A DNA stretch of 35,336 nucleotides, taken from an uncultured Prevotellaceae bacterium (GTDB taxonomy: Bacteria; Bacteroidota; Bacteroidia; Bacteroidales; Bacteroidaceae). The stretch covers positions 1 to 35,336 of the forward strand of contig ONDJ01000018.1 in assembly GCA_900316575.1 (NCBI GenBank), written 5' to 3'. Below the pieces are notes generated by a model. The model had not been told where the DNA came from. It saw only the letters and a list, made by a program, of their open reading frames with translations, and made no database searches. Numbering within the stretch: position 1 is the first letter of the stretch; every line of letters begins with the position of its first letter. Below are positions 1,518 to 12,713 of the stretch, piece after piece. The position numbers and the translations under genes were made by a program.

Positions 1518-2126
1518 TTAGTTGTTCTCTTCAGGTGTTTCGCTGGTGCTTTCGTCCACTTGTATCAGCACTTCCTCTTTTGCTTCAAGCATTGTTCGCT
1601 TGATAGAGCGATGGATGACGAATGCTGTGACGAGTTGCAGCGGAGCGTAGATAATGAGCGAATAGCCTATGATGAGGAAAGGCAGTTCGGCAACTTCGTT
1701 CCAGAAAATGATGACCAAGACACCTGCCACAAATAAAAGTATGGGGAAAAGGAAGTGCCATGGCGATACGCGCGCATCGTTGACGCGAGCCTGCCACACG
1801 TTCAGACAGCCAGTGGTGCCAAAGAGTATCATGACGCCCGCCAATGCATAGAGTAAGAAAGCAATAAACGATTGAGGGAAGCACAGCAAGTAAATACCGA
1901 AGAGTATGCTTCCGCCCGCAGTGAAAGGAACCATGGGCATATAGGCCGCTGATTTGTCGGTGAAAAGTGCCAGCAGCGTCACCAAGCCCGGGAGCATAAA
2001 TAGTATGCCGCAGGCCATGACTATCCATTGCGGTGCGTCGGCACTATAGGTCACAAGCAGAATGCCCAAAGCAAACAGGCAGACATTGCGGAGCAGGGCT
2101 TGCAGAAAATAGTTTTTTGGGTTCAT
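1518..2126 (-). CDS. DUF308/HdeD-like multi-pass membrane protein
   Basis: A 202-aa inner-membrane protein of unknown function. About six hydrophobic segments fill residues 10-165, including CLFALGILLVTY, IVMACGILFMLPGLVTLLAL, FIAFLLYALAGVMILFG, FLFPILLFVAGVLVIIFW and FLIIGYSLIIYAPLQLV. The C-terminal 35 residues are hydrophilic and acidic (EEVLIQVDESTSETPEENN). The hydrophobic pattern with small-residue-rich paired helices resembles the DUF308 (HdeD-like) family; I see no catalytic motif. It starts 56 nt after the rseP stop, so read-through from the rseP operon is likely. The family assignment is a judgement from pattern, not a motif proof. Confidence 0.7.
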   Translation of the reverse strand: MNPKNYFLQALLRNVCLFALGILLVTYSADAPQWIVMACGILFMLPGLVTLLALFTDKSAAYMPMVPFTAGGSILFGIYLLCFPQSFIAFLLYALAGVMILFGTTGCLNVWQARVNDARVSPWHFLFPILLFVAGVLVIIFWNEVAELPFLIIGYSLIIYAPLQLVTAFVIHRSIKRTMLEAKEEVLIQVDESTSETPEENN

Positions 2127-2182
2127 GTGGTTGGTCGTTGTTTGAAGGTTTCAGAACGTTTGTTTGACGAATACCTCTTAAC

Positions 2183-3556
2183 TCAGAAAACAAAGTTGCG
2201 GAAGTCGTTAAAGATAGCCAAAACCATGAGCAGCAAGATGAGCGTCATGCCAATGGTTTCGGCGCGTTCCATAAACTTGTCGCTGGGCTTGCGGCGTGTG
2301 ATGATTTCTACGAGCAGGAAGAATACGTGTCCACCGTCGAGTGCAGGGATTGGTAGTATGTTCATGAACGCGAGCATCAAGCTGATGAAGGCCGTCATCT
2401 CCCAAAAGCGCTGCCACTGCCACGTTTTTGGGAAAAGGCTTCCAATCGCTCCGAAGCTACCCACACTCTTGGCGCCATCAGTAGTGAAAAGATACTTCAG
2501 GTCGTTCACGTAGCCACTCAGCACGTGCCAGCCATACGAAACTCCTGCGGGGAAACTTTCGAAGAAGCCATATACTACCTTTTCGGTCTTGTAGTCCTTG
2601 AGCGGCGAGTTCCACATAATGCCGAGCACATAGTCCTTACCCAGGCTCAATTTGAGCGTGTCAATACTGGTTGCTCCCTTGTGGGCAACAGCAACAGTGA
2701 CGTTGCGCAGGCGAGCACTATCGGCGGCATGGCCAGCAATAAGCACGTCGTCCATTTGACCACGAATTTCGCCAAACTTGTTCCACGTGTCCATGCTTAC
2801 GCCATTGAAGGCTTTGATGGTATCGCCAGCGATGATGCCTGCTTTCGCGGCAGGACTGCCGGCCACGACACTGTCCACGAGGTTTGGAATAAGCAGTGCG
2901 ATGAACGGTGGGTCGGCTTTTACCATTTGCAGTAAGTCGGAACCATCTTCGGGCATGGCAATGCTGACTTCTTTACCTTGGCGAAGCACCTTCACTTGCT
3001 GGGCTTCGCTCAATGTGCGATACAGATCCATAAGTTCCATGCGCTCAATGGGCTGTCCATCGGCACTCACGGGTATGTCGCCGTTGCGGAAACCAAGCTT
3101 TTGTGCTTGACCATTGTAGTAGAAACCATGCGTGACGTTCTTCATCGGTACGTATTCGTTGCCCCACGTGAAGAGCACCATGGCGTAAATGACAAAGGCT
3201 GTGAGAAGGTTCATCAGCACACCGCCCGTCATAATCAACAAGCGCTGCCATGCTGGTTTTGCGCGAAACTCCCATGGCTCAATCTTGTCGGATAGTTGGC
3301 TGGCACTTTGCGTTTCGTCCACCATGCCTGCTATCTGAACGTAGCCGCCCAGAGGGAGCCAGCCTATGCAGTAGGTCGTTTCGCTGCCTTTGGGCTTGAA
3401 TTTCACGGGCGTGAACCAAGGATCGAAGAAAAGCGAGAATTTATTGACGCGCACCTTGAAGAGCTTGGCAAACAAGAAATGTCCACCCTCGTGCAACAGC
3501 ACAAGCAGCGAAAGGCACAAGATGAGTTGCAGGGCGCGAATAAGGAATACTTCCAT
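2183..3556 (-). CDS. rseP: RseP-type site-2 (M50) membrane metalloprotease
   Basis: An intramembrane zinc metalloprotease of the site-2 protease family; E. coli RseP cleaves anti-sigma factors inside the inner membrane. The zinc-binding HEGGH motif is complete (H22, E23, H26) in the first transmembrane helix, and the third ligand lies in NILPIPALDGGH (399-410, Asp407). A PDZ region lies between them, with GSPAAKAGIIAGDTIKAFNG near residues 235-254 and a second degenerate PDZ-like part before it (KLGFRNGDIPVSADG). Length 457 aa is usual for Bacteroidetes. The gene starts 47 nt after dxr, an arrangement common in bacteria (dxr-rseP). No partner sigma/anti-sigma pair is visible in the window, so the substrate is unknown. 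Confidence 0.95.
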   Translation of the reverse strand: MEVFLIRALQLILCLSLLVLLHEGGHFLFAKLFKVRVNKFSLFFDPWFTPVKFKPKGSETTYCIGWLPLGGYVQIAGMVDETQSASQLSDKIEPWEFRAKPAWQRLLIMTGGVLMNLLTAFVIYAMVLFTWGNEYVPMKNVTHGFYYNGQAQKLGFRNGDIPVSADGQPIERMELMDLYRTLSEAQQVKVLRQGKEVSIAMPEDGSDLLQMVKADPPFIALLIPNLVDSVVAGSPAAKAGIIAGDTIKAFNGVSMDTWNKFGEIRGQMDDVLIAGHAADSARLRNVTVAVAHKGATSIDTLKLSLGKDYVLGIMWNSPLKDYKTEKVVYGFFESFPAGVSYGWHVLSGYVNDLKYLFTTDGAKSVGSFGAIGSLFPKTWQWQRFWEMTAFISLMLAFMNILPIPALDGGHVFFLLVEIITRRKPSDKFMERAETIGMTLILLLMVLAIFNDFRNFVF

Positions 3557-3603
3557 CGTTTGATATAATTAAATAAGAGTTGTGTTATCGGTTGTCGTTG
3601 TGT

Positions 3604-4779
3604 TTATGGGTTGGGTTTGTCCTTGATATACGAGCGAGCAATGGCGCGCGCCTCTTTGTCGATCGCGAAACAGTCGTCAAGGGTAGGGGATTCGATGCGA
3701 GGCGTATGTTCCATAGTATATAATATGGTGTCGCACAGTCTGGGGAAACTGATTGTTCCTTGGCGGAATGCAAGGTTAGCCACTTCGTTGGCCGCATTCA
3801 TCGCACAGGGCAACGTTCCGCCTTCTGCGGCAGCCTGATAGGCATAAGCCAAGCATGGGAAACGTTCTGTATCGGGACGCTCAAAGTGAAGCGCACCAAG
3901 GCGGAAGAGGTCTATACATCCCGCGTCTAATTGAGCACGCTCGGGATAGCAAAGGGCATGTTGGATAGGCAGTCGCATATCGGGCACAGCCAGTTGGGCT
4001 TTGACGCTTCCGTCGCAAAACTGCACGGCACTGTGAATAACGCTCTCGGGATGTACGACGACTTCAATCTGGCTGGGTTTTACGCCAAAAAGATGGCAGG
4101 CTTCAATCATCTCAAAGCCTTTGTTCATCATTGTTGCGCTGTCGATGGTTATCTTTTCGCCCATGGTCCAGTTGGGATGTCGCAGGGCTTCTTTGGCTGT
4201 GACGTGGCTGAGGGCTTCTTTTGAGAACGTGCGAAATGGGCCACCGCTGGCTGTGAGCAAGATTTTCTCAATGCTCCCTTGGGGCTCGCCTTGCAGACAT
4301 TGGAAAATGGCTGAATGTTCGCTGTCGATGGGCAGAATGTCAACGCCACGTTCTTTTGCCAATGGCATGATAAGACTTCCTGCCACGACGAGTGTTTCTT
4401 TGTTGGCCAAGGCAATGGTGCGCCCTGCCTTGATGGCTGCCACCGTTGAGGCCAAGCCTGCAAATCCTACCAATGCCGTAACGACGGTATCTACCCCGGG
4501 CCAAGTTGCAGCGTCGCACAGTGCGTCGTTGCCCACGAGCACTTGTGTCGCCGTGCCGGCCAATGCACTTTTCACGTCGTCGTATCGTGCTTTGTCGGCT
4601 ATCACCACAGCTTCTGGACTAAACTCACGGGCTTGCTGTATGAGCAGGTCGGCGTTGTGTCCTGCCGTGAGTACCACTGCTTTGAAGCGCTCGGGATGTC
4701 GGCGAACAATGTCGAGCGTTTGTGTGCCGATAGAGCCAGTAGAACCTATGATAGAAAGTCTTTTCATGCTTAGAGCCAT
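3604..4779 (-). CDS. dxr: 1-deoxy-D-xylulose-5-phosphate reductoisomerase
   Basis: Second enzyme of the MEP pathway: it converts DXP to 2-C-methyl-D-erythritol 4-phosphate with NADPH and a divalent metal. Motifs are the nucleotide-binding GSTGSIG (12-18), the metal-binding DSEHSA (D152, E154), TASGGPFR, HPNWTMG (201-207) and NKGFEMIEA (E223, E226). Length 391 aa is typical. Two ATGs are plausible. The one at 4779 lies one base after the rimM stop (TGA-C-ATG), suggesting translational coupling; the one at 4767 gives MKRLSIIGSTGSIG, which looks more like family N-termini. It is the expected target of fosmidomycin (family knowledge). Confidence 0.96.
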   Translation of the reverse strand: MALSMKRLSIIGSTGSIGTQTLDIVRRHPERFKAVVLTAGHNADLLIQQAREFSPEAVVIADKARYDDVKSALAGTATQVLVGNDALCDAATWPGVDTVVTALVGFAGLASTVAAIKAGRTIALANKETLVVAGSLIMPLAKERGVDILPIDSEHSAIFQCLQGEPQGSIEKILLTASGGPFRTFSKEALSHVTAKEALRHPNWTMGEKITIDSATMMNKGFEMIEACHLFGVKPSQIEVVVHPESVIHSAVQFCDGSVKAQLAVPDMRLPIQHALCYPERAQLDAGCIDLFRLGALHFERPDTERFPCLAYAYQAAAEGGTLPCAMNAANEVANLAFRQGTISFPRLCDTILYTMEHTPRIESPTLDDCFAIDKEARAIARSYIKDKPNP

Positions 4780-4780
4780 G

Positions 4781-5320
4781 TCAGTCGTTTATGTTGAGCA
4801 ATCCTTCGGGAATGAAGAGTTGCAGCGTGCGCTCTTTCTCGTTAATGTTTCTCACAAAGTCTTCATGAAAGGGCAGAATGATTTCTTCCTGTCGCATCGG
4901 CGAGGAAACATAGAGCAAGATGTTTTCATTGCGGTCGTCCACAGCGGTAATCTCGCCGATGACGTTGCCGGCTTCGTCCTTTATCGTATATCCTTTGAAT
5001 GCTTGCCATGAACGAAACTGCGCCTCGTCTGCCAACTCTTTGCTTAGCGCATAGACGCTACAACCTGTGAGATTGGCGGCTTGCGCATCGCTGTCAACAC
5101 CATCAAACTTCACCAGCATAACATCGGTGCCTCGTTCGCGCCATTCGTCGATGAAAAAAGGTACGGGCAGGCTGTCTATCTCAATGAACAGACAGTCGGG
5201 CACATCGCCATCGTCGTTGACTATGTCGCGCATAAGCTGCAAGCGTAGTTCGCCGCGAGTGCCGTGTTTGCGACCTATAGTGCCAACGTGTGTCAAGTCG
5301 TCAAAGGTAAGCGTTTGCAT
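4781..5320 (-). CDS. rimM: 16S rRNA processing / ribosome maturation factor RimM
   Basis: Assists late 30S assembly by binding S19 and the 16S 3' domain. The N-terminal beta-barrel signature VGTIGRKHGTRGELRLQL is visible, followed by a C-terminal PRC-barrel part (SWQAFKGYTIKDEAGNVIGEITAVDD and ILPFHEDFVRNIN). I chose the ATG at 5320 (179 aa). A TTG at 5353 would add 11 residues and overlap the murA stop codon (TTGA), which would also allow coupling, so the start is not settled. The gene lies between murA and dxr with minimal gaps. Confidence 0.9.
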   Translation of the reverse strand: MQTLTFDDLTHVGTIGRKHGTRGELRLQLMRDIVNDDGDVPDCLFIEIDSLPVPFFIDEWRERGTDVMLVKFDGVDSDAQAANLTGCSVYALSKELADEAQFRSWQAFKGYTIKDEAGNVIGEITAVDDRNENILLYVSSPMRQEEIILPFHEDFVRNINEKERTLQLFIPEGLLNIND

Positions 5321-5349
5321 GGAGGAAGTGTGCTTTCTTTGGGATTGGG

Positions 5350-6657
5350 TCAATCTTCGCGCGTGATCCTTGCGCCCAGGGCGTTGAGGCGCTGTTCGAT
5401 GTGTTCGTAGCCGCGATCGATCTGCTCCACGTTTTCTATCACGCTGGTTCCTTCAGCTCCGAGTGCAGCGATGAGCATAGCGATGCCAGCGCGAATGTCG
5501 GGCGAAGCCATGCGTCGGGCATGAAGTTGCAGCTGGCGGTCGTGTCCTACGACGACAGCGCGGTGGGGGTCGCAAAGAATGATTTGTGCGCCCATCTCTA
5601 TGAGCTTGTCGGTGAAGTAGAGGCGACTTTCAAACATCTTTTGATGAATGAGCACACTGCCTTTGGCCTGTGTCGCCACTACGATAAGCGCACTGAGCAT
5701 ATCGGGCGAAAGTCCAGGCCACGGCGCATCGGCCAGCGTCATAAAGGAACCGTCGAGAAACGTTTCCACTTGGTAGTGGTCGTGACGAGGGATAAACATG
5801 TCTTCGCCGCGTTGCTCGAGTGTGATACCTAATCGGCGAAAAGCCTCGGGCATGATGCCAAGCTGTGGCCAGGCTACATCCTTGATGGTGATACCTTCGC
5901 CTACTGTTGCTGCAATGGCTGCGAAGCTACCTACTTCAATCATGTCGGGCAAGATGCGGTGGGTTGCTCCTTTTAGTGTTGAAACGCCTTCAATGGTGAG
6001 CAAGTTTGAGGCAATACCTTCGATCTTCGCCCCCATTGCGCAGAGCAACTTGCAGAGTTGTTGCACGTAGGGCTCGCAGGCAGCATTGTAAATGGTCGTT
6101 GTTCCTTCGGCCATCACTGCGGCCATGATGATATTGGCTGTTCCTGTGACGCTTGCTTCGTCGAGGAGCATGTAGGTGCCTTTGAGCTTGTCGGCTTGCA
6201 GGCAATAGATGCTTGCCGCTTCGTCATAGCAATAAAAGGCTCCGAGTTTTTCAAAGCCGAAAAAGTGGGTGTCCAATCGGCGACGGCCTATCTTGTCACC
6301 GCCTGGACGGGCTATGGCGGCTTGGCCGAAACGGGCAAGCAGGGGGCCTGTGAGCAGGATGCTACCACGGAGCCGAGCGCAGCGTTCCAAATAGTCTTTG
6401 CTGCGTAGGTATGAAAGGTTTATGTGGGCGGCTTGAAAGGTATAGTCGCCTATAGCGTGCTTCGTGACGCTCACGCCCATATCGGCCAGCAATGTGATGA
6501 GGTTGTTCACATCGGCAATGTCGGGTACATTGCATATTCTGACAGGCTCTGCCGTAAGCAGGGTGGCGCAAATCACCTGCAAAGCCTCGTTCTTCGCGCC
6601 CTGAGGTGTGATAGTGCCGCTTAAGGGATGCCCGCCTTCTATGATGAGAGATGCCAT
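5350..6657 (-). CDS. murA: UDP-N-acetylglucosamine 1-carboxyvinyltransferase, Asp-type active site
   Basis: First committed enzyme of peptidoglycan synthesis: it transfers enolpyruvate from PEP to UDP-GlcNAc. The chosen ATG gives MASLIIEGGHPLSG and a 435-aa protein, normal for the family; the frame stays open further upstream but that would run into the preceding gene. Visible signatures are GAKNEALQVICA (20-31), GSILLTGPLLARFGQ (98-112) and PGGDKIGRRRLDTHFFGFEK. The position of the catalytic cysteine (E. coli Cys115, in PGGCAIG) is Asp121 here. Asp-type MurA enzymes are active but not alkylated by fosfomycin (known from Mycobacterium and Chlamydia), so intrinsic fosfomycin resistance is predicted. 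The gene starts 10 nt after the DUF4290 gene. Confidence 0.96.
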   Translation of the reverse strand: MASLIIEGGHPLSGTITPQGAKNEALQVICATLLTAEPVRICNVPDIADVNNLITLLADMGVSVTKHAIGDYTFQAAHINLSYLRSKDYLERCARLRGSILLTGPLLARFGQAAIARPGGDKIGRRRLDTHFFGFEKLGAFYCYDEAASIYCLQADKLKGTYMLLDEASVTGTANIIMAAVMAEGTTTIYNAACEPYVQQLCKLLCAMGAKIEGIASNLLTIEGVSTLKGATHRILPDMIEVGSFAAIAATVGEGITIKDVAWPQLGIMPEAFRRLGITLEQRGEDMFIPRHDHYQVETFLDGSFMTLADAPWPGLSPDMLSALIVVATQAKGSVLIHQKMFESRLYFTDKLIEMGAQIILCDPHRAVVVGHDRQLQLHARRMASPDIRAGIAMLIAALGAEGTSVIENVEQIDRGYEHIEQRLNALGARITRED

Positions 6658-6667
6658 AGGCTTTTTG

Positions 6668-7249
6668 TTACTTCTTTTTGCGCTTCTTGGTGTTGTTGGT
6701 GCTGGTTTCCACTCTGATGGAAGCGAGCGGACGATTGCCAAAGTCGGCGCGTGTGGCTCCTTGGGTTATTCGCTCTATGTCGTGAACGATGCGCTTATCA
6801 TCGGGCTGTTCGCCACGAAAACTAACGATGCAGCGTTTCATCCTCGTACCTATCCCGCGCAAAAGCTCTGTGCGCTGGGCATTGTCGGGCATTTGGCTCA
6901 TTTCGTTCAAGGCGCGTTCCACCAATGTGCCGTAGTGGCGATAGTGCAAGGTGGAGGTAGGGTAGGGTATGTTGGGCCGCTCGTTGGCTTCTGCACGATG
7001 AATTTCGCAAGGGTAGTCAATGTCGAGCTGATATTTGCTGATGTAGGCCAAGTGGTCCCATAGCTTCTCGCGATATCCAGGAACGTTTTTCATCTGCGGG
7101 TTCAGGCCGCGCATCACGCCGATGATGGCTTCGGCATAGGCTTGTCGCTGGGCGCGGTCGGTGATTTTCATCGCGTCGTCCACCATCTGTTGAACAATGC
7201 GCCCGTATTCGGGCATCAGCAATGTGGGACGCTGGGTGTTATAGTCCAT
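6668..7249 (-). CDS. DUF4290 domain-containing protein
   Basis: A 193-aa soluble protein of unknown function that I recognise as the Bacteroidetes-restricted DUF4290 family by MDYNTQRPTLLMPEYGRIVQ, REKLWDHLAYISKYQLDIDYP and the overall helical composition. No signal peptide or membrane helix is present. The C-terminus is strongly basic (TKKRKKK), which could contact nucleic acid (inference only). It sits between tsaB (12 nt gap) and murA (10 nt gap), so it belongs to the same transcript. The linkage to murA hints at an envelope- or growth-related role, but the sequence does not prove one. Confidence 0.85.
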   Translation of the reverse strand: MDYNTQRPTLLMPEYGRIVQQMVDDAMKITDRAQRQAYAEAIIGVMRGLNPQMKNVPGYREKLWDHLAYISKYQLDIDYPCEIHRAEANERPNIPYPTSTLHYRHYGTLVERALNEMSQMPDNAQRTELLRGIGTRMKRCIVSFRGEQPDDKRIVHDIERITQGATRADFGNRPLASIRVETSTNNTKKRKKK

Positions 7250-9841: not shown

Positions 9842-9895
9842 TTCGCGTTCGCACCGTACGAAAATTATGTTCGCGCCGTACGCCGCGAACGCGAA
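9842..9895. repeat. Inverted repeat with internal direct repeats (intergenic)
   Basis: TTCGCGTTCG (9842-9851) and CGAACGCGAA (9886-9895) form a perfect 10-bp inverted repeat. Inside, GTTCGCaCCGTACG (9847-9860) recurs as GTTCGCgCCGTACG (9869-9882). The element lies in the 460-bp gene-free stretch between the birA terminator and the kinase gene. It may belong to the same dispersed repeat as 9915-9991. Function unknown. Confidence 0.6.
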
Positions 9896-9914: not shown

Positions 9915-9991
9915 GGGGCGCGGGCGTCCCGCCCGCGAATAGCTTGTATCAATCGCCCATTCTCGCTTTGCGGGCGAGACGCCCGCGCTCC
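9915..9991. repeat. GC-rich REP-like inverted pair
   Basis: Two roughly 20-bp GC-rich palindromic units (9918-9937 and 9969-9988) are inverted copies of each other with one mismatch (GCGCGGGCGTCCCGCCCGC against the complement of GCGGGCGAGACGCCCGCGC). Each unit also folds on itself. This head-to-head layout, about 30 bp apart, is typical of REP/BIME-type dispersed repeats. Composition is much more GC-rich than the surroundings. Whether it recurs in the genome cannot be seen from this window. Confidence 0.65.
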
Positions 9992-10169: not shown

Positions 10170-12713
10170 ATGCCCCAAGCGAAAGACAACAACTTCCTAC
10201 ACCCAGGCACGCGGCTCGGTGCAGAGCGTCAGTATCTCATTCTGAAACCGCTGGGCAATGGTGGTTTTGGCAAAACCTATTTGGCTCGCAACACCAAGTT
10301 TGGCGACGGCGGACCTCAGTTGGTCATCAAAGAGTTTTTCATGCTCAGGGAAATGCACCGCGATGAACATTCATCTCGTGCCTTGGTGAGCAATCCGCTC
10401 AATCAAGCTGCGGTGAACGATTTTCGCGCCAAGTTTATTCGCGAAGCCCAGCGCATCTATCAGCTCAGCCATCCTGGCATTGTGCGTGTCACCGACATTA
10501 TCTACGACGAGAACGACACGAGCTACTACGTGATGGACTACGTGGGCAGTCAATCCCTGAACGACCTCCTCGACCAGCGTGGCGTACTGCCCGAGGCTGA
10601 GGCTGTAGATTATGTTTGCCAAGTGCTTGAGGCTCTGCGCGTGGTACATGCCAATCGTATGCTCCATCTCGACGTGAAGCCCAGCAACATTATGCTCAAT
10701 GCCCAAGGACGGGTTGTGCTCATAGATTTCGGTGCGAGCAAGATTGAAAATTTCAAAGGCAAAATCTCGTCCACCCCCATGGCTCTTTCCAGGGGCTTTG
10801 CTTCGCCTGAGCAAATCAGCGGTTCGCTGAAACACATTGATCCGCGTGCAGACATTTATGCTGTAGGTGCCACACTCTACAATTTGCTTACGTCAAACGT
10901 GGTGCGTGATCCCATGGATCTTCTACAAGACAAAGATGCCGCCTTTGTCTTTCCACTTTCAGTAAGTGAGCCTGTGCGTCGGGCTGTAGTCCTCATGATG
11001 GCCTATCATTCTTCTGACCGTCCTGCCACGGTTGACGAAGCGCTTGCGTTGTTGCGTACAGCAGCGGCTGATATTACGTATGCCGATTCCACAGCAGATC
11101 TGTCGCTTCAAGAAATGCTTGAAATGGTAGAAGTAGAAGGCGGCACGTTCACTATGGGAGCCACAAGCGAACAGGGAAGTGATGCCTATGATGATGAAAA
11201 GCCCGCTCACCAAGTTACACTGAGTACGTTCTCTATCGGCAAGTACGAAGTGACGCAGGCGTTGTGGCAAGAAATTATGGGCAGTAATCCGTCCTACTTC
11301 AAAGGCGACAATCTGCCCGTTGAGCAAGTCTCTTGGGACGATTGTCAAGAATTCCTCAGCAAACTGAATGCACGCAAGGGCGAATTTGGTATTACAGATG
11401 GTCGCACGTTCCGTTTGCCCACCGAGGCCGAGTGGGAATACGCCGCGCGCGGCGGCAAGCTATCTAAAGGCTTTAAGTACAGCGGCTCGAACAACATTGG
11501 AGACGTGGCTTGGTACTGGGATAATAGTGGCAAAAAGACCCACCCTGTAGGCAGGAAGCAGGCTAACGAACTTGGCATTTACGACATGAGTGGCAACGTT
11601 TTGGAATGGTGCCATTGGTGTGGCGGTTATTCCTCTGGTGCTCAGACGAATCCGCAGGGTCCTGCTTCGGGCTCCCGCCGTGTGATTCGCGGCGGCTGCT
11701 GGGACAGCGGCGCGCGGGATTGCCGCGTGTCGTACCTGAACATCCTCACGCCCGTCAGCCGCTTCGCTAGCCTCGGCTTGCGCCTCGTCCTGAACGTAAG
11801 CAAACCTTTTGAAAAGCCCAAACCGAAACCTCAGTCCAAGCCACAACCTGTTCGTTCTAAGAAAAACAAAGGCAACCTCGTGCTGCTTCTTTCAGCTCTG
11901 GCAGGCATGGTGATTGTTATAGGGATTATGCTCGGTGTGCGGCAGTGTGGAGGAGGTGAGACGGTAGCGTATGATGATGCTTATGCCGATTCCACAGCAG
12001 ATCTGTCGCTTCAAGAAATGTGGGAAATGGTAGAAGTAGAAGGCGGCACGTTCACAATGGGAGCCACAAGCGAACAGGGAAGTGATGCCTGGGAAAACGA
12101 AAAGCCCGCTCATCAGGTAACGCTGAATACGTTCTCTATCGGCAAGTACGAAGTGACGCAGGATTTGTGGCAAGAAATTATGGGTAGTAATCCTTCCAAC
12201 TTCAAAGGCGACAATCTGCCCGTGGAGAACGTCTCTTGGGACGACTGTCAAGAATTTCTCCGCAAACTCAATGCTCGCAAGGGCGAATTTGGTTTTACTG
12301 ATGGTCGCACGTTCCGTTTGCCCACCGAGGCCGAGTGGGAATACGCCGCGCGTGGTGGCAAGTTATCTAAAGGCTTCAGGTACAGCGGTTCGAACAACCT
12401 TGGGGACGTGGCTTGGTACTGGGATAATAGTGGAGGAAAGACACATCCCGTAGGCACGAAGCAGCCCAACGAACTTGGCATTTACGATATGAGTGGAAAC
12501 GTTGATGAATGGTGTCAAGATTGGTATGGCGGTTATTCCTCTGGTGCTCAGACGAATCCGCAGGGTCCTGCGTCGGGCTCCGACCGTGTGAGGCGCGGTG
12601 GCAGCTGGAACAGCTTCGCGCAGGATAGCCGCGTGGCGTACCGGCGCAGCATCCTCACGCCCGAACCCCGCAGCAATTACCTCGGCTTGCGCCTCGTCCT
12701 GAAGTTCCCATAG
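10170..12713 (+). CDS. Membrane-anchored Ser/Thr protein kinase with two SUMF1/FGE-like domains
   Basis: An 847-aa protein. Residues 22-300 are a Hanks-type kinase: glycine loop LGNGGFGKTY (28-37), ATP-binding Lys54, HLDVKPSN (catalytic Asp169), DFG (186-188) and SPE (212-214), so it looks active. Residues 308-541 are a first SUMF1/FGE-sulfatase-like domain (GGTFTMG, EVTQALWQEIMGSNPS, RLPTEAEWEYAARGG, YDMSGNVLEW, RGGCW). A Lys/Pro-rich linker (548-568) and one transmembrane helix (569-590) follow, then a second, nearly identical SUMF1 domain (about 609-847). By the positive-inside rule the kinase and first SUMF1 are cytoplasmic and the second is periplasmic. The C-x4-C active site of true formylglycine-generating enzymes is not present, so ligand binding rather than catalysis is likely. 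The variable C-terminal ends suggest a DGR target (see findings). Confidence 0.9.
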   Translation: MPQAKDNNFLHPGTRLGAERQYLILKPLGNGGFGKTYLARNTKFGDGGPQLVIKEFFMLREMHRDEHSSRALVSNPLNQAAVNDFRAKFIREAQRIYQLSHPGIVRVTDIIYDENDTSYYVMDYVGSQSLNDLLDQRGVLPEAEAVDYVCQVLEALRVVHANRMLHLDVKPSNIMLNAQGRVVLIDFGASKIENFKGKISSTPMALSRGFASPEQISGSLKHIDPRADIYAVGATLYNLLTSNVVRDPMDLLQDKDAAFVFPLSVSEPVRRAVVLMMAYHSSDRPATVDEALALLRTAAADITYADSTADLSLQEMLEMVEVEGGTFTMGATSEQGSDAYDDEKPAHQVTLSTFSIGKYEVTQALWQEIMGSNPSYFKGDNLPVEQVSWDDCQEFLSKLNARKGEFGITDGRTFRLPTEAEWEYAARGGKLSKGFKYSGSNNIGDVAWYWDNSGKKTHPVGRKQANELGIYDMSGNVLEWCHWCGGYSSGAQTNPQGPASGSRRVIRGGCWDSGARDCRVSYLNILTPVSRFASLGLRLVLNVSKPFEKPKPKPQSKPQPVRSKKNKGNLVLLLSALAGMVIVIGIMLGVRQCGGGETVAYDDAYADSTADLSLQEMWEMVEVEGGTFTMGATSEQGSDAWENEKPAHQVTLNTFSIGKYEVTQDLWQEIMGSNPSNFKGDNLPVENVSWDDCQEFLRKLNARKGEFGFTDGRTFRLPTEAEWEYAARGGKLSKGFRYSGSNNLGDVAWYWDNSGGKTHPVGTKQPNELGIYDMSGNVDEWCQDWYGGYSSGAQTNPQGPASGSDRVRRGGSWNSFAQDSRVAYRRSILTPEPRSNYLGLRLVLKFP
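11079..11796 (+). repeat. SUMF1 domain duplication, copy 1
   Basis: The first copy of a tandem intragenic duplication, beginning in both copies at TATGCCGATTCCACAGCAG. It covers the linker ADSTADLSLQEM and the whole SUMF1 domain. The two copies are close to identical at the nucleotide level, including many third positions, except for the last 105 bp or so (about 11670-11775), where differences pile up. The offset between copies is 903 bp. Confidence 0.88.
11982..12707 (+). repeat. SUMF1 domain duplication, copy 2
   Basis: The second copy, which ends the gene. Its C-terminal variable stretch (about 12577-12685) differs from copy 1 mostly at first and second codon positions and has one extra codon. 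Both copies end in an identical GC-rich block CTCGGCTTGCGCCTCGTCCT. Confidence 0.88.

Follow-up and report, generated by a model that had tools for sequence, protein, structure and literature searches.

Diversity-generating retroelements (DGRs) with kinase targets, DGR proteins with several variable repeats (VRs) and DGR targets without a reverse transcriptase (RT) have already been published, as the excerpted texts of the reports cited here indicate. Kinases are described as the commonest DGR targets of cyanobacteria (Vallota-Eastman et al. 2020, excerpts of PMC7517822). The excerpted account of Thiohalocapsa PB-PSB1 counts 21 VRs spread over 15 targets, which include a kinase domain, and describes loci without an RT as well as action in trans (PMC10907252). 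In Marichromatium purpuratum, one open reading frame (ORF) encodes three tandem FGE-sulfatase paralogs with three VRs (Schillinger et al. 2012, excerpts of PMC3521204), and several VRs are reported within one ORF for 31 of 271 multi-VR DGRs (PMC6642488, in excerpt). Strains of T. denticola that lack both the RT and the template repeat (TR) keep their target genes, according to passages of PMC4891356, and the ecology of DGRs is treated in PMC8144416 (likewise in excerpt).

The gene described here lies in a stretch of 35,336 nucleotides (the window), contig ONDJ01000018.1 of the uncultured Prevotellaceae bacterium assembly GCA_900316575.1 (G000; 2.35 Mb in 34 contigs, estimated to be 91.8% complete). 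Its features are collected in Table 1, together with those of a locus in a member of the same genus, G012.

Table 1. Features of the kinase gene in the window and of locus L043 in the congener G012
Feature	Position	Strand	Basis or source
Gene for an 847-residue kinase - SUMF1 - membrane helix - SUMF1 protein	10170..12713	+	Pfam, translation
Hanks-type protein kinase domain, residues 25-245	10242..10904	+	Pfam
SUMF1/FGE domain 1, predicted cytoplasmic	11121..11795	+	Pfam, translation
VR1 (variable repeat 1), 41 codons	11670..11792	+	VR alignments
3' block of VR1, CTCGGCTTGCGCCTCGTCCT, candidate IMH	11772..11791	+	Identical in the G012 template
Membrane helix, residues 570-588, preceded by a K/R-rich stretch	11877..11933	+	Hydropathy
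SUMF1/FGE domain 2, predicted periplasmic, residues 619-843	12024..12698	+	Pfam
VR2 (variable repeat 2), 42 codons	12576..12701	+	VR alignments
Extra CGC codon of VR2	12645..12647	+	Predicted template here is a run of AAC codons
3' block of VR2, CTCGGCTTGCGCCTCGTCCT, candidate IMH	12681..12700	+	Same block in the G012 template
L043 SUMF1 gene	6181-7080	-	G012
L043 HRDC-domain ORF	5574-6062	-	G012
L043 reverse transcriptase	4594-5577	-	PHROG 1423 match; IGNLTSQ, YMDD
L043 template repeat, after the RT	about 4414-4555	-	G012

Pfam identifies a Pkinase domain (1.5e-35) and two stretches of FGE-sulfatase (1.3e-93) in the 847-residue protein; the SUMF1/FGE label of both domains is a family assignment, and a catalytic (formylglycine-generating) role is putative. 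The sequences KEFF, HLDVKPSN and DFG, which we take to be named motifs of such kinases, are readable in the kinase domain. The membrane helix is the sole hydropathy peak above 1.6 in the whole protein and, because a K/R-rich stretch precedes it, the predicted topology puts the kinase and domain 1 in the cytoplasm, with domain 2 in the periplasm. Among solved structures, the best match of domain 2 is T. denticola variable protein 1 (TvpA, PDB 2y3c; E 4.2e-40), a DGR variable protein that ranks ahead of the FGE enzymes, and the matches also include FGE-type domains that their depositors assigned to Ser/Thr kinases. Loci related to the kinase protein are largely titled Bacteroidales, or a family or genus within that order (35 of the 49 named loci, some of the names being ones that we presume to belong there), and many come from ruminant samples. 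Two GC-rich inverted repeats lie upstream of the kinase gene (window 9842-9895 and 9915-9991), and the core of one of them recurs in contig C75 of G012, near a kinase gene 70% identical to that of the window.

The initial annotation had aligned the ends of the two SUMF1 domains and counted 15 amino-acid-changing codons and about one silent difference. Our recount (11676-11771 against 12582-12680) agrees, the sole silent difference being GGC/GGT at 11691/12597, and the substitution count thus stands, although the alignment had overlooked a one-codon insertion in the second copy. The third base is kept in most of the changed codons, as had been stated: in 12 of 15 with the gap placed by MAFFT and in 13 of 15 with the one-codon gap set at CGC. 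The GC-rich block said to end both copies is likewise there, 20 bases long. In contrast, the description of the two domains as near-identical outside the last 35 or so codons has to be abandoned, since the 183 codons upstream hold about 30 silent and 22 amino-acid-changing differences (pS 0.26, pN 0.05), against pS 0.08 and pN 0.25 (dN/dS 3.6) in the 41-codon VR. This contrast strengthens the case for directed mutagenesis. The final 54 bases 5' of the VR contain 2 mismatches between the window copies, so the 5' edge of the pattern is unreadable from VR1 and VR2 alone. As to the extra codon of VR2, slippage during copying of the predicted AAC run is a plausible origin.

A complete DGR is present in G012, where locus L043 comprises a SUMF1 target, an HRDC-domain ORF, an RT and a TR. 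The RT contains the (I/V/L)GxxxSQ sequence, described as an RT motif in the excerpted part of PMC3521204. Over 123 bases, the TR differs from the neighboring VR at 15 positions and from a VR on contig C41 at 19, and every one of these differences (15/15 and 19/19) is at a template adenine, with 0 of 91 non-adenine sites changed. Since the C41 VR, on another contig, differs from the TR at adenines alone, this DGR acts, or has acted, in trans. The 3' end of the TR is CTCGGCTTGCGCCTCGTCCT, the 20-base block common to both window copies. Both TR-matched targets in G012 are SUMF1 proteins without a kinase domain. When the G012 RT was aligned with eleven others, ten of the 12 proved to stand at loci with an adenine-biased TR/VR pair, the exceptions being L056 and L057.

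Further elements were seen in other relatives. Locus L144 (Bacteroidales RGIG3218, 1902-5654) combines an RT (2583-3545) with one template (3565-3696); its two VRs, both in cis, belong to a SUMF1 protein and to a PEGA-SUMF1 protein. The single-contig congener G004 encodes an RT with GLPIGNLTSQ and YVDD (L176, 1624-2694, minus strand), and its SUMF1 paralogs display no cohort signature of the kind described below. Two more congeners, G070 (L066) and G006 (L070), contain TR/VR pairs with adenine-only differences, next to RTs that bear only a distant resemblance to the G012 RT.

In the genome to which the window belongs, SUMF1 ends form two cohorts of three: VR1, VR2 and the end of a gene on contig C6 (cohort 1), and the ends of genes on contigs C14, C29 and C21 (cohort 2). 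The columns at which members of a cohort vary were compared with the adenines of the G012 TR, an indirect test in which the congener's template is used in place of the genome's own and the inserted codon is removed from VR2. VR1 and VR2 differ at 18 of the 32 adenine columns and at 6 of the 91 others; with the C6 gene included, cohort 1 varies at 27/32 and 9/91 (p = 1e-14), and cohort 2 varies at 21/32 and 9/91 (p = 2.7e-9). By codon position, the 36 variable columns of cohort 1 are distributed 14, 17, 5. Twenty-five of them contain A (three being single third-position changes), 6 more have A in the G012 TR and 5 have neither; for the 30 variable columns of cohort 2, the corresponding numbers are 18, 5 and 7. 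The target side of the system therefore displays variation at adenine columns and at codon positions 1 and 2, in a VR at the 3' end of an FGE domain that closes with a GC-rich, IMH-like block. Substitutions relative to the G012 TR itself lie at adenines in 21/36 cases for copy 1 and 16/36 for copy 2, and the many non-adenine differences imply that the window copies were not written from that very template. Similarly, VR pS between cohort 1 and cohort 2 is 0.47-0.55, with third positions as in ordinary paralogs, implying that the two cohorts had different templates. Within cohort 1, non-adenine changes number 1 in VR1, 4 in VR2 and 3 in the C6 gene; with the additional codon, they suggest that some time has passed since these VRs were last rewritten.

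The same signature was observed in SUMF1 cohorts of two more congeners, G008 (L096, L097, L098, L099, L198, L200) and G019 (L100, L101, L103), with 4 of the 6 and 2 of the 3 members, respectively, used in the adenine-column counts (the third G019 VR is shorter). In contig C21 of the window's own genome, two SUMF1 genes have a short VR-like sequence between them (L048, 5252-5320, minus strand), which aligns at 67% with the G012 template over 69 bases and is perhaps the remnant of a third gene.

A search for the machinery, which the initial annotation had proposed as a check, came out negative for the genome itself and positive for the congener, whose template ends in the same 3' block and whose adenines predict the varying bases. 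In the 91.8%-complete assembly of the window's genome, RVT_1, the G012 RT and a 12-RT profile gave 0 RT matches at E values up to 10; searches for a TR, whether with VR sequences from cohorts 1 and 2, with the TR of G012 or with a degenerate pattern, recovered the VRs alone; and the sole match to an HRDC-type accessory (E 0.006) lies inside a 731-residue frame. The assembly thus yielded none of the three components. Self-comparison of the window and nine stretches of the same genome gave no TR/VR pair, by a method that also missed the real L043 pair; one line from it, at L046, proved to be a palindrome. The 20-base block also occurs in one viral contig, which was considered as a phage carrier and set aside, the 14,862 bases examined having no RT match and the block having no VR around it. 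SUMF1-type RTs are likewise absent from the assemblies of the other two cohort genomes: G019 contains none of the searched RTs, and G008 merely an RT fragment of another type. The latter, near the end of contig C4 (L197, 10151-10237, minus strand), consists of 29 N-terminal DGR-like RT residues that are 76% identical to the L062 RT, followed by unrelated sequence; because it ends after about 29 residues and is closest to the L061-L063 RTs, it was rejected as belonging to the SUMF1 system seen in G012.

These results bear on the question of whether a working DGR locus, in the unassembled 8% of the genome or on a mobile element, still rewrites the VRs in trans, which would be a special case of a DGR origin. 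The incomplete assembly leaves room for such a locus, and three of the cohort genes (C6, C14, C29) are cut by contig ends, so an assembly gap could hide it. Furthermore, three of the six G008 VRs have zero third-position differences among themselves, implying that a genome without an assembled RT can carry VRs that look freshly written. Against this, the sequence available downstream of the cut cohort genes contains no RT, three cohort genomes (G000, G008 and G019, at 92, 81 and 86% completeness) all lack such an RT, and cohort 1 has gathered non-adenine changes, whereas G012, which has the RT, shows none. Overall, we regard continued rewriting as possible, if somewhat unlikely.

The extent of the rewritten tract is best seen in pairs with diverged flanks. 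Non-adenine mismatches between VR1 and the C6 gene amount to 18/54 in the 5' flank, 5/91 in the VR and 66/100 in the 3' flank, and those between the C29 and C21 genes to 27/54, 4/91 and 72/100; in such pairs, the frozen stretch coincides with the TR/VR footprint of G012. Other pairs remain alike past the VR, for about 20 bases in VR2 and the C6 gene, about 40 in the C14 and C21 genes and about 75 in two G008 genes, and in several G008 and G019 cohort genes the likeness extends about 75 bases beyond the VR. In these cases, as in VR1 and VR2 with their similar 5' flanks, the copied tract, or a duplicated end, would be longer. A downstream hairpin, needed by some DGRs, was looked for in 16 sequences: the window copies have no stem of at least 6 bases, and G021 and G012-C41 are the only ones with a perfect stem of at least 8. 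The likeness that runs 20-75 bases past the stop codon, exceeding the G012 TR/VR match, could point instead to gene conversion or exchange of 3' cassettes among paralogs, which would have homogenized the ends before selection varied them. Conversion would copy the adenine sites too, yet these differ most, and it does not predict the adenine columns of G012; we consider it very improbable.

The silent sites provide a further line of evidence. Among the six pairs within the genome's own cohorts, VR pS is 0.04-0.10 (0.04-0.08 in cohort 1), against an upstream pS of 0.25-0.87; the C6, C14 and C29 genes, being truncated, allow upstream comparison over 48-49, about 101-106 and up to about 150 codons. 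The comparison was extended to ten genomes, using SUMF1 genes taken by position from the best matches of those genomes (a non-exhaustive set) and requiring of each pair at least 45 aligned upstream codons and at least 30% upstream amino-acid identity; all L088:-2883 rows (a second reading of one gene) were left out. G001 yielded no pair, and the remaining nine genomes gave 173 within-genome pairs: 25 grouped pairs, with a VR pS of 0.00-0.20, and 148 others, with a VR pS of 0.22-0.97, two ranges that nearly touch and that stem from groups assigned with the VRs already in view. The 25 grouped pairs make up five groups, and their upstream pS is 0.25-0.87. In pairs with an upstream pS of at least 0.5, median VR pS is 0.07 when grouped (n = 17) and 0.67 otherwise (n = 143), and the share of VR differences that falls on third positions is 12% in the groups and 40% in the other pairs. 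The clearest case is that of two G008 genes with 57% identity upstream (pS 0.76) and 22 VR differences, 0 of them at third positions. Ordinary paralogs show a mild excess of variation at the same columns (median odds ratio 1.8-3.5, against 11.8 or more in the groups, for one VR length and with cohort 1 represented by VR1 and the C6 gene without VR2); residue-level selection therefore exists in ordinary paralogs, but the silent-site freeze is absent there. An origin without a retroelement, by duplication, ordinary point mutation and then positive selection for change in the binding face, would fit the dN/dS above 1 in the VR and this mild column excess in non-cohort paralogs, but is the least credible of the explanations weighed: selection on residues does not freeze third positions and silent sites beside saturated flanks, the third-position share is low in the groups, and the footprint is that of a real TR in a congener.

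We consider it highly likely that VR1 and VR2 are DGR variable repeats, rewritten in trans from one template. The adenine-directed mutagenesis that the initial annotation had read from the codon pattern is supported by the congener's DGR, by a third cohort member and by a second cohort, and adenine-directed retrohoming, at least in the past, best explains that pattern. Weighing against a DGR are the negative searches for an RT, TR and HRDC-type accessory in the assembly, the non-adenine differences from the G012 template, the non-adenine changes within cohorts, the inserted codon, the likeness beyond the VR (and, for VR1 and VR2, just upstream of it) and the column excess in ordinary paralogs; directly in its favor stand the gene anatomy, the pattern of adenine columns and codon positions, the homogenized silent sites, the footprint and the intact system of the congener. 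An error-prone RT would copy an adenine-rich TR, placing other bases opposite template adenines, and the cDNA would replace the 3' end of SUMF1 domains, which have a C-type-lectin fold. One template would serve several genes in trans, namely both domains of the kinase gene and the C6 gene, and a second would serve the genes on C14, C29 and C21; the RT and TR themselves would have been lost from this genome or lie unassembled. The product would be a Hanks-type kinase that spans the membrane and exposes one diversified face to the cytoplasm and another to the periplasm. The pairing of a kinase with variable lectin-fold domains suggests a sensor with a randomized binding face. Ligands in the periplasm would be met by domain 2 and those in the cytoplasm by domain 1, and the kinase probably responds to what is bound; ligand binding, signaling and membrane topology are all predicted from sequence.

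Kinase and SUMF1 domains are also combined, according to Pfam, in two cohort members of the congeners (L096 in G008 and L103 in G019), and the G008 member L198 contains a kinase-like motif only. Neither of the G012 targets that match its TR, and neither of the two in L144, has a kinase domain, which counts against this reading. That a single template in trans diversifies one kinase on both sides of the membrane, with the DGR components still at work and encoded in an unassembled locus or on a mobile element passing through, we hold to be rather doubtful; if true, a cell could pair a random cytoplasmic with a random periplasmic binding face. More broadly, paralogous targets suffice to read the history of a DGR, even where RT and template are both missing, by means of homogenized silent sites, scattered adenine sites and a footprint borrowed from a congener. 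Searches that start from the RT would miss genomes such as this one. A Ser/Thr kinase with two diversified domains, predicted to lie across the membrane from each other, would also make the sensor idea for kinase targets testable in a gut or rumen lineage.

Comparison with known systems places this locus closest to L043 of G012 and other Bacteroidales DGR loci with SUMF1 targets, with which it shares the target domain, the VR footprint, the 20-base 3' block and action in trans; unlike the assembly that holds the window, G012 has the RT and TR, and its TR-matched targets lack a kinase domain. The T. denticola system resembles the window in providing, as TvpA, the best solved match of domain 2 and in having targets that outlast the RT and TR, but its targets are mostly lipoproteins, and a kinase is not mentioned in the excerpted text (PMC4891356). 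The Marichromatium ORF similarly has several VRs in tandem FGE paralogs, but the paralogs number three, the RT is present, and neither kinase nor membrane helix is mentioned in the excerpts (PMC3521204). Thiohalocapsa has multi-VR targets and lectin-fold domains placed in the cytoplasm or periplasm, but its genome contains complete systems, and in the excerpted report none of the kinases is noted as carrying one VR domain in the cytoplasm and another in the periplasm (PMC10907252). The variable kinases of cyanobacteria, as excerpted (PMC7517822), share with the window a Ser/Thr kinase joined to a diversified lectin-fold domain, remote targets and a proposed role in sensing; they differ in having one C-terminal lectin-fold domain each, in being mostly cytosolic and in having the RT in the genome. 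Among the papers listed and in the excerpted DGR literature, we recognized no kinase whose VR domains are divided between the two sides of the membrane, the arrangement predicted here.
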